Assembly (NCBI RefSeq): GCF_000255135.1
Contig: NC_016751.1
Coordinates: 930,001 to 994,000 of the forward strand
From: Marinitoga piezophila KA3
GTDB taxonomy: Bacteria; Thermotogota; Thermotogae; Petrotogales; Petrotogaceae
Reading direction: 5' to 3'
Length of the DNA stretch: 64,000 nt
Part shown: in pieces, positions 3,996-5,781 of the stretch
Layout: the number at the start of each line of letters is the position of its first letter
Numbering within the stretch: the stretch's first letter is position 1
Made by a program: the position numbers and the translations under genes
Notes under the pieces: model-generated
Told to the model about the DNA's origin: nothing
Seen by the model: only the letters and a program-made list of their open reading frames with translations
Databases searched by the model: none

Positions 3996-4546
3996 TACAG
4001 CATTTAGCGAAAATGAATATTATAAATAATAAACTTATTATAAATAATCCTTTCAAAAATATTCAATTAGGGGAAAGCATTTCAATTAACGGTGTATGTT
4101 TAACTGTTGAAAAAATAGAAAATAGCAAGCTTTATTTTTCAATAGGAGAAGAAACATACAGAAAGACAAATTTAAGGTATTATAATAATAAAATTGTCAA
4201 TCTCGAAAGGTCTTTAAGATTATCTGATTTTGTTGGAGGACATATTGTTACCGGTCACGTTGATGGAATAACAAAATTTTTAGGTTTAAGAAAATCTTCA
4301 AATACATTTTGGATGAAATTTAAAATTCCTCAAGAAAAATGGGCCATTGCAACAAAAGGGGCTATTACAATAAATGGAATAAGTTTGACAATTGCAAAAA
4401 AAGAATTAGATACCTTTGAAATACAAATAATAGAGCATACATATCAAAATACAAACTTAAAATTTCTAAAAATAAGTGATTTTGTTAATTATGAAATAGA
4501 TATAATTGCTCGTTATTTAAAAGAACAATCTGAATATATTTATTAA
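3980..4546 (+). CDS. ribE: Riboflavin synthase, alpha chain
   Basis: Final step: dismutation of two lumazine molecules to riboflavin. Start taken at ATG 3980 because the family begins MFTGIIQ and TGGGAG lies 8 nt upstream inside the end of ribD; an upstream in-frame start at 3965 would lie before this Shine-Dalgarno. Two tandem lumazine-binding repeats are visible (ISINGVCLTVE near 40 and ITINGISLTIA near 137), with GGHIVTGHVDG between them. 188 aa. Last gene of the FMN-controlled operon; gene order BA-H-D-E differs from the Bacillus D-E-BA-H order. Confidence 0.95.
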   Translation: MFTGIIQHLAKMNIINNKLIINNPFKNIQLGESISINGVCLTVEKIENSKLYFSIGEETYRKTNLRYYNNKIVNLERSLRLSDFVGGHIVTGHVDGITKFLGLRKSSNTFWMKFKIPQEKWAIATKGAITINGISLTIAKKELDTFEIQIIEHTYQNTNLKFLKISDFVNYEIDIIARYLKEQSEYIY

Positions 4547-4554
4547 CCAAGTAG

Positions 4555-4583
4555 TTGACATTGTAAAAAAAATGTAGTATAAT
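4555..4583 (+). promoter_or_regulatory. Consensus sigma-70-type promoter for the asnA leader
   Basis: TTGACA (4555-4560), 17-nt spacer, TATAAT (4578-4583): both hexamers perfect. It lies 8 nt after the ribE stop, and no terminator is seen between, so transcription of asnA is mainly independent but could include riboflavin-operon read-through. Confidence 0.9.
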
Positions 4584-4624
4584 AAGAAAAAATTTAATAT
4601 ATATTTTTTCAGGTGGTGTTAGGT

Positions 4625-4702
4625 ATGAAGATAAGAACAATAATAATAAAAGTTAATAATTTCAATAATAATATCAACCAGCGTTGGTGGAACGCGAGGT
4701 AA
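4625..4702 (+). CDS. Asn-rich leader peptide (25 aa) of the asnA attenuator
   Basis: ATG 4625 follows AGGTGG by 8 nt; the ORF ends at TAA 4700-4702. Seven of 25 residues are Asn: residues 11, 12, 14, 15, 16, 18 and 23, with six within eight codons. The codons after the Asn cluster (for QRWW) are the RNA bases that form the left arm of an antiterminator. The gene downstream makes asparagine. This is the layout of a classical leader peptide whose translation reports charged tRNA-Asn. The peptide itself needs no function. Confidence 0.8.
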   Translation: MKIRTIIIKVNNFNNNINQRWWNAR

Positions 4703-4734
4703 GCTGTCGTTTACTATCAATTCACCGGCGCTGG
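4678..4734 (+). promoter_or_regulatory. Antiterminator stem of the asnA leader
   Basis: CCAGCGUUGGUG (4678-4689) can pair over 12 bp (two G-U) with CACCGGCGCUGG (4723-4734). The latter includes the whole left arm of the terminator hairpin, so the two structures are mutually exclusive. A competing small hairpin GCGTT/AACGC (4681-4685 with 4691-4695) could serve as the protector stem. Stalling at the Asn codons leaves the left arm free; a ribosome reaching the stop codon covers it and allows termination. Confidence 0.75.
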
Positions 4735-4758
4735 ATTTTACCAGCGCCGGTTTTTTAT
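4725..4758 (+). terminator. Attenuator terminator upstream of asnA
   Basis: Perfect 10-bp GC-rich stem CCGGCGCTGG/CCAGCGCCGG with a 6-nt loop and TTTTTT tail at 4751. It is the strongest hairpin of the region and sits between promoter and gene, so it must be conditionally bypassed for asnA to be expressed. Confidence 0.92.
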
Positions 4759-4824
4759 TTATCTATTTAAATTCAATGAGAGGGAGAGATTTTTATAAAA
4801 TTATATTTGAAGGGAGAGGGTATT

Positions 4825-5781
4825 ATGATGAAAGAAAGTATGGAAAGAAAGGTTGACACGGTACCATTGGTAAAGGAATATATGGAAAATCCTGTATTTA
4901 AAGACGCTACACTTATTCAAAGCGAAATTTTAAAAGGAATTAGACATGTATTGGATGAAAAAGGATTTGTGGAATTATTGCCTGTAACTGTTTCACCTAT
5001 TACTGATCCACTAAACCATCCACATTTTGAAGCTGAATTTGAATATTATGGACAAAAGTATTCAGTTACAAAATCTATGATTTTACACAAGCAGGTTGCT
5101 GTTCTTGTTCATAAAAAGATTTATATTGTTTCACCAAACGTTAGATTGGAAACAGAGGACAAAATGCATTCAGGAAGACATTTATTTGATTTTGTTCAAA
5201 TAGATATGGAAATGTTAGAATCACCAAGAGAGGTTGTATTTGATGTAATGGAAGATGCCATTATCCATACAATAAAAACAATAAAAGAAAAATATCCTGA
5301 GATTATTGAAAAGTATCATCCTTCTTTGAAAGTTCCTGAAAAACCTTTTAAATGCTATACCGTAAAGGAATTAAAGGAAAAATATGGCGAGGACTATGAG
5401 AAAAGAGCTTCTCTTGAAGCAACTGAACCATTCTGGATGATCGATATTCCACTTTTAGAAAGAGAATTCTATGATAAACAGGATCCTGAAAGACCTGATG
5501 TTTTATTGGATTTTGATTTGATTTACCCTGAAGGTTATGAAGAAGCTATATCCGGTGGGGAGAGGGAGCATGAATACGAACAGATTCTAAAAAGAATGGA
5601 GTTAAAGGGAACTCCACCAGAGGCTTTCCAGGATTATCTGGAAGTTGCAAAAGCTGGTTTGTTAAAACATTCTGCCGGATGTGGAATTGGAATAGAAAGA
5701 TTTACAAGATGGATTTTAGCGCTCGATCATGTTGAAAAAACCAGACTTTTTGCAAAAACTCCTGGAAAGCACTCTATCTAA
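4825..5781 (+). CDS. asnA: Archaeal-type asparagine synthetase A (AspRS-like fold)
   Basis: Resembles the archaeal asparagine synthetase related to the catalytic core of aspartyl-tRNA synthetase, which makes Asn from Asp, ATP and ammonia; there is no anticodon-binding domain. Class II features: VSPNVRLETE with HLFDFVQIDMEM (motif 2 region) and GCGIGIERFTRWIL (motif 3, with its Arg). Length 318 aa from ATG 4825. I prefer this start because AGGGAGAGGG lies just before it; a TTG at 4807 would put the Shine-Dalgarno inside the gene. Expression is probably controlled by the Asn-codon attenuator upstream. A free-standing AsxRS paralogue of another function is the alternative. Confidence 0.85.
   Translation: MMKESMERKVDTVPLVKEYMENPVFKDATLIQSEILKGIRHVLDEKGFVELLPVTVSPITDPLNHPHFEAEFEYYGQKYSVTKSMILHKQVAVLVHKKIYIVSPNVRLETEDKMHSGRHLFDFVQIDMEMLESPREVVFDVMEDAIIHTIKTIKEKYPEIIEKYHPSLKVPEKPFKCYTVKELKEKYGEDYEKRASLEATEPFWMIDIPLLEREFYDKQDPERPDVLLDFDLIYPEGYEEAISGGEREHEYEQILKRMELKGTPPEAFQDYLEVAKAGLLKHSAGCGIGIERFTRWILALDHVEKTRLFAKTPGKHSI

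Follow-up and report, generated by a model that had tools for sequence, protein, structure and literature searches.

The trp, his, leu and thr attenuators of Proteobacteria share their plan with the leader of the asparagine synthetase gene asnA described here. Common to them are a short translated ORF (predicted in the case of asnA) that is rich in codons for the product of the pathway, mutually exclusive protector, antiterminator and terminator helices, and a stop codon sited so that a terminating ribosome covers an arm of the antiterminator. The asnA leader differs from these attenuators in its Asn codons, its archaeal-type asnA target and its Thermotogota host, and its RNA is unrelated and without a match in Rfam. 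In Firmicutes, asparagine genes are controlled by the T-box, which senses the charging of tRNA(Asn) and switches a terminator; it binds the uncharged tRNA directly, and translation of a leader is not needed. The asnA leader would likewise sense tRNA(Asn) charging and switch a terminator, but it lacks a T-box match: searched against Rfam at the gathering score, it yielded no T-box (RF00230), riboswitch or other known leader, and the Rfam covariance models of the His, Trp, Leu and Thr leaders did not match it either.

Two further systems from comparative studies bear a resemblance. uORFC-8-2, which precedes cysS, and related uORF attenuators were identified by comparative genomics and carry Cys codons in Rhodobacterales (PMC8632094). 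As with the asnA leader, the attenuation predicted for uORFC-8-2 is mediated by the ribosome and acts at a gene linked to an aminoacyl-tRNA; the main text of that report contains no mention of asparagine (PMC8632094). His leader peptides preceding hisS and hisZ in Bacilli provide an example of leader-peptide attenuation outside Proteobacteria and Actinobacteria, differing from the asnA leader in their His codons and Firmicutes hosts, and the main text of that source mentions neither Thermotogota nor asparagine (PMC2965389). Mechanistically, the asnA switch belongs to the leader-peptide attenuators. We found neither an Asn-specific member of this class nor any member from Thermotogota in the literature searched, with the attenuator survey of Lopatovskaya et al (2010) being a possible prior report.

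The features of the locus are collected in the Table; coordinates refer to the window, that is, the whole 64-kb stretch of DNA analysed. The original prediction had described a perfect promoter, a 25-codon ORF with a good ribosome-binding site and seven Asn codons (six of them within codons 11-18), a 12-bp pairing between 4678-4689 and 4723-4734, and a perfect 10-bp terminator with a U6 tail in front of an archaeal-type asnA, and each of these elements is present in the sequence base for base.

Table. Elements of the asnA leader and its target gene, in window coordinates.
Feature	Position	Strand	Evidence
Promoter, sigma-70-type, TTGACA-17 nt-TATAAT	4555..4583	+	12/12 consensus bases
Shine-Dalgarno-like AGGTGGTG of leader ORF, ATG 6 nt downstream	4611..4618	+	sequence
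Leader peptide ORF, MKIRTIIIKVNNFNNNINQRWWNAR and stop, 25 codons	4625..4702	+	Asn-rich leader in 50/50 loci examined
Putative sensing Asn codons 11, 12, 14, 15, 16, 18	4655..4678	+	density unmatched in 5,000 shuffles
Antiterminator 5' arm (A), CCAGCGTTGGTG	4678..4689	+	pairs with 4723-4734; homologous helix covaries
Protector hairpin, GCGUU-GGUGG-AACGC	4681..4695	+	MFE fold; helix of equivalent role covaries in Mesoaciditogaceae group
Shared arm (C), antiterminator 3' arm and terminator 5' arm	4723..4734	+	pairing and covariation
Intrinsic terminator, perfect 10-bp stem 4725-4734/4741-4750 and U6	4725..4756	+	homologous helix 100% paired
asnA, archaeal-type (AspRS/AsnRS-like) asparagine synthetase, 318 aa	4825..5781	+	NF005054; PDB 3p8t, 1nnh

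The seventh Asn codon of the leader ORF, codon 23, lies at 4691-4693, shortly before the stop codon at 4700-4702, and arm A overlaps Asn codon 18 by a single base (4678), with which the arm begins. Two of the 12 pairs between CCAGCGTTGGTG and CACCGGCGCTGG are G-U, and the duplex surpasses shuffled sequences at p=0.003. The terminator reads CCGGCGCTGG-ATTTTA-CCAGCGCCGG (4725-4750) with the T6 run at 4751-4756, and its stem grows to 11 pairs if the flanking A-T is included. Promoter-like hexamers occupy the equivalent site in other Marinitoga-group loci, and the Shine-Dalgarno motif of the leader is identical or near-identical in relatives from this group. Further upstream, an FMN riboswitch (RF00050, 120 bits) is located at 1042-1157, in front of the riboflavin genes lying upstream of asnA.

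The asnA product matches the NCBIfam model for asparagine synthetase A (NF005054) at 417.9 bits (cut-off 309), as well as the archaeal asparagine synthetase A structures 3p8t/3p8v. The enzyme is of the archaeal type and paralogous to the catalytic domain of AspRS and AsnRS. Since the Marinitoga-type genome also encodes AsnRS, the free asparagine that AsnA synthesizes can be loaded onto tRNA(Asn), and the pool that the leader would report is presumably the Asn-tRNA produced by AsnRS.

The original prediction could be judged by whether the Asn run and compensatory changes in the stems recur in relatives, and both do. We compared the regions preceding AS-AR genes, both in relatives and across a broader set of genomes. 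Each of the 45 Thermotogota AS-AR asnA loci whose upstream DNA could be read (L001-L045) has a terminator behind an Asn-rich leader ORF, which ends inside or close to the antiterminator. The same combination occurs at five further loci, three from Mesoaciditogaceae and two from Caldisericum, so that the 50 conserved loci span families f1, f2, f5, f6 and f8 as well as Caldisericum. Leader peptides of relatives include MKILKLLSSSNKVNNNNNNIQRR, MSKFLNLISKINNNNNNNSIGIGRLG and MRSAIIFINLNNNNNNGPGSVGFAFA, each followed by a stop codon, and Mesotoga-like leaders have shrunk to DNN or NNN, leaving only two to three sensing Asn codons. AAT (217) and AAC (80) are mixed among the sensing codons of relatives, and selection therefore appears to act on the amino acid. 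At one locus (L015), the leader is displaced upstream by extra sequence and is found in the longer upstream DNA (L046). Archaeal orthologues, mostly from Thermoplasmata and with an upstream GC content of ~0.37, show a run of at least three Asn codons in 0 of 40 cases, a count that leaves out L066, a misfiled Thermotogota locus; some Caldiserica records and one from Bipolaricaulota also have an asnA orthologue without an Asn leader. In one genome assigned to the genus of the window (G002, L025), asnA matches as two overlapping pieces behind an intact leader, which likely reflects a frameshift or sequencing error. In another genome (G023), asnA (L007) is similar to the Petrotoga-family type and is preceded by a leader. 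This genome retains a second Asn leader (L235, 440-590), of the type found in its own order; it is not followed by any recognisable asn gene, and the next ORF (589 aa) has no family match. The second leader is possibly an orphan remaining after gene replacement.

Pairing between arms A and C surpasses shuffled sequences at p<=0.017 at 49 of the 50 loci, the sole exception being L058, and arm A starts 0-11 nt past the end of the Asn block. In MAFFT alignments of three groups, standard pairs make up 92%, 89% and 92% of the antiterminator, and its covariation scores exceed those of all 500 shuffles and of slid registers in each group. For the group with the helix homologous to that of the window, the score is 0.320 compared with 0.202 in shuffles, with 16 double-change cells, although related sequences inflate such counts and the shuffles thus serve as a guide rather than a probability. 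The terminator helix (C:D) consists of 100%, 97% and 98% standard pairs in the three groups and also shows compensatory changes, including those in the fully paired homologue of the window terminator (19 loci). In the Mesoaciditogaceae group, the protector helix is 91% paired and has nine double-change cells in 11 sequences. Compensatory changes were thus found in every helix tested. With both A:C and C:D conserved and covarying, arm C is constrained by A as well as by D, and the two pairings are mutually exclusive.

On sequence grounds, we regard it as very probable that the asnA leader is a ribosome-mediated transcription attenuator sensing Asn-tRNA, the interpretation put forward in the original prediction, and conservation, compensatory changes and modelled folding geometry all argue for it. 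We infer coupling of translation and transcription, ribosome stalling and a response to asparagine. According to this model, a ribosome would translate the leader while RNA polymerase is still making it. When Asn-tRNA(Asn) is scarce, the ribosome would stall at the first Asn codons and leave arm A free to pair with C before D (4741-4750) exists, so that the terminator is pre-empted and transcription continues into asnA. When Asn-tRNA is plentiful, the ribosome would reach the stop codon and cover A, allowing the C:D terminator to form. If the leader is not translated at all, the protector hairpin, which hides arm A, and the terminator would hold asnA off.

The RNA geometry fits the predicted switching, in which stalling favours the antiterminator and arrival at the stop codon the terminator. 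In one model, a ribosome halts on the first codon of the Asn block, and its 3' edge is assumed to lie 12 nt downstream of the first base of the A site; in RNA made before arm D, the antiterminator then folds at 48 of the 50 loci, the two others being L022 and L077 in this simple nascent model. With a ribosome at the stop codon, again with a 12-nt 3' footprint, the terminator folds in 50/50 loci, and the ribosome is predicted to mask the antiterminator arm. Without a ribosome, the terminator folds in 46/50. With these footprints, which are assumed E. coli-type values, the models reproduce the classic logic of stall on, stop codon off and no translation off. At equilibrium, the whole window leader folds as the terminator, implying that antitermination must be kinetic.

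Covariance models of the leader, whose R3 scores serve only as a screen, led to further copies of the switch; weak R2 and R3 matches inspected by eye were mostly plain terminators. Among the related switches, one has Asp codons and precedes the AspRS gene aspS (G013), another has Thr codons and precedes the ThrRS gene thrS (G016), and a Met-rich leader occurs in G050 (the loci with other sensing codons are L142, L144, L143, L239 and L238). Their antiterminators are also better than shuffles. This set also includes a Val/Ile-containing switch in front of an ABC transporter and, at other sites, leaders rich in Met or aromatic codons. The match between sensing codons and target gene lends strong independent support to the attenuation mechanism. 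This exchange of codons also speaks against a sequence-specific arrest peptide, in which the nascent chain (poly-Asn, QRW/QRR) would stall the ribosome upon sensing a small molecule rather than upon low Asn-tRNA. Such a peptide might be suspected from short C-terminal motifs conserved within groups (QRR, QRW.NAR, WPGSVG and SIDIGR); yet these differ completely between families and overlap arm A and the protector arm, so that their conservation is explained at the RNA level, and we consider an arrest peptide highly improbable.

It is equally hard to believe that the leader ORF exerts translational or Rho-dependent control, with the hairpin being only a processing site. A precedent for such control could be seen in the asnA leaders of the G061 class, where Asn codons are combined with a GTCCCC/GGGGAC hairpin without a U tract; Asn leaders may accordingly work without an intrinsic terminator somewhere. 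At the Thermotogota loci, in contrast, the hairpin is strong and its tail T-rich, and in the window ~55 nt separate the U tract from the downstream asnA ribosome-binding site, which is outside the switch. The G061-class leader, from Aminicenantes/Acidobacteriota records (L060, L088, L093, L097, L203-L205, L207 and L216), ends in NNVPF, NNVPL or similar, and its hairpin contains the stop codon in most cases. It is a different switch from that of Thermotogota.

The probability that the leader is a chance product, an AT-rich stretch with accidental AAT repeats followed by an unremarkable terminator that belongs to the rib operon upstream, is practically nil: the genome is AT-rich, slippage can produce AAT trinucleotides and the upstream gene ends at 4546, but the leader has its own perfect promoter, mixed AAT/AAC runs stay in frame with start and stop in 50 loci, the switch is conserved despite differing upstream sequence, and the antiterminator covaries. 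The shuffle test rejects a chance repeat, as none of 5,000 dinucleotide shuffles of 4555-4825 contained a short ORF with at least six Asn in eight codons. Nor did such an ORF occur in 20 shuffled 64-kb windows, and the leader is the only short ORF with six Asn in eight codons on either strand of the real one. Moreover, the folding energy of the leader RNA lies 4.6-5.0 sd below that of shuffles.

Attenuation by Asn codons appears to extend beyond asnA. In five Petrotoga-type genomes, an Asn run (SSNNNNNKQRRLKTL and stop) forms the C-terminal tail of GltD and is followed by the same switch, amtB and glnK (L137, 63-2450, and L138-L141). This tail lies beyond the family match, as TIGR01317 ends at residue 183 of a 196-residue fragment, and the full-length gltD would act as the leader peptide of the amtB-glnK switch. 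Searches for short ORFs would miss such cases. Asn leaders with antiterminator and terminator are also found directly upstream of glnA in G049, G057 and G055 (L236, L237 and L241), and glnA lies directly behind asnA in G007, G033, G043 and G065. Position thus suggests that amtB and glnA are controlled by the Asn switch. Control of glnA is not universal, since 12 genomes (G000, G017, G021, G023, G026, G040, G041, G046, G059, G038, G050 and G054) have no Asn leader upstream of it. Taken together, we think it somewhat probable that Thermotogota widely use charged tRNA(Asn) as a nitrogen-status signal, through Asn-codon attenuators on asnA, on glnA (with its own leader or close behind asnA) and on the Petrotoga-type amtB-glnK with the gltD tail as leader, and that other genes have received the same chassis with its sensing codons changed to Asp, Thr and perhaps Met or others.

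With the asnA switch, asparagine would join the amino acids that leader-peptide attenuators sense, and this mechanism would be placed in a mostly thermophilic phylum from which the literature searched describes none. The exchanged sensing codons on one switch amount to a natural test of specificity. The gltD-tail leader, if true, means that a full-length gene can be a leader peptide, and if the glnA and amtB-glnK cases hold as well, these bacteria would read their nitrogen status partly through Asn-tRNA.
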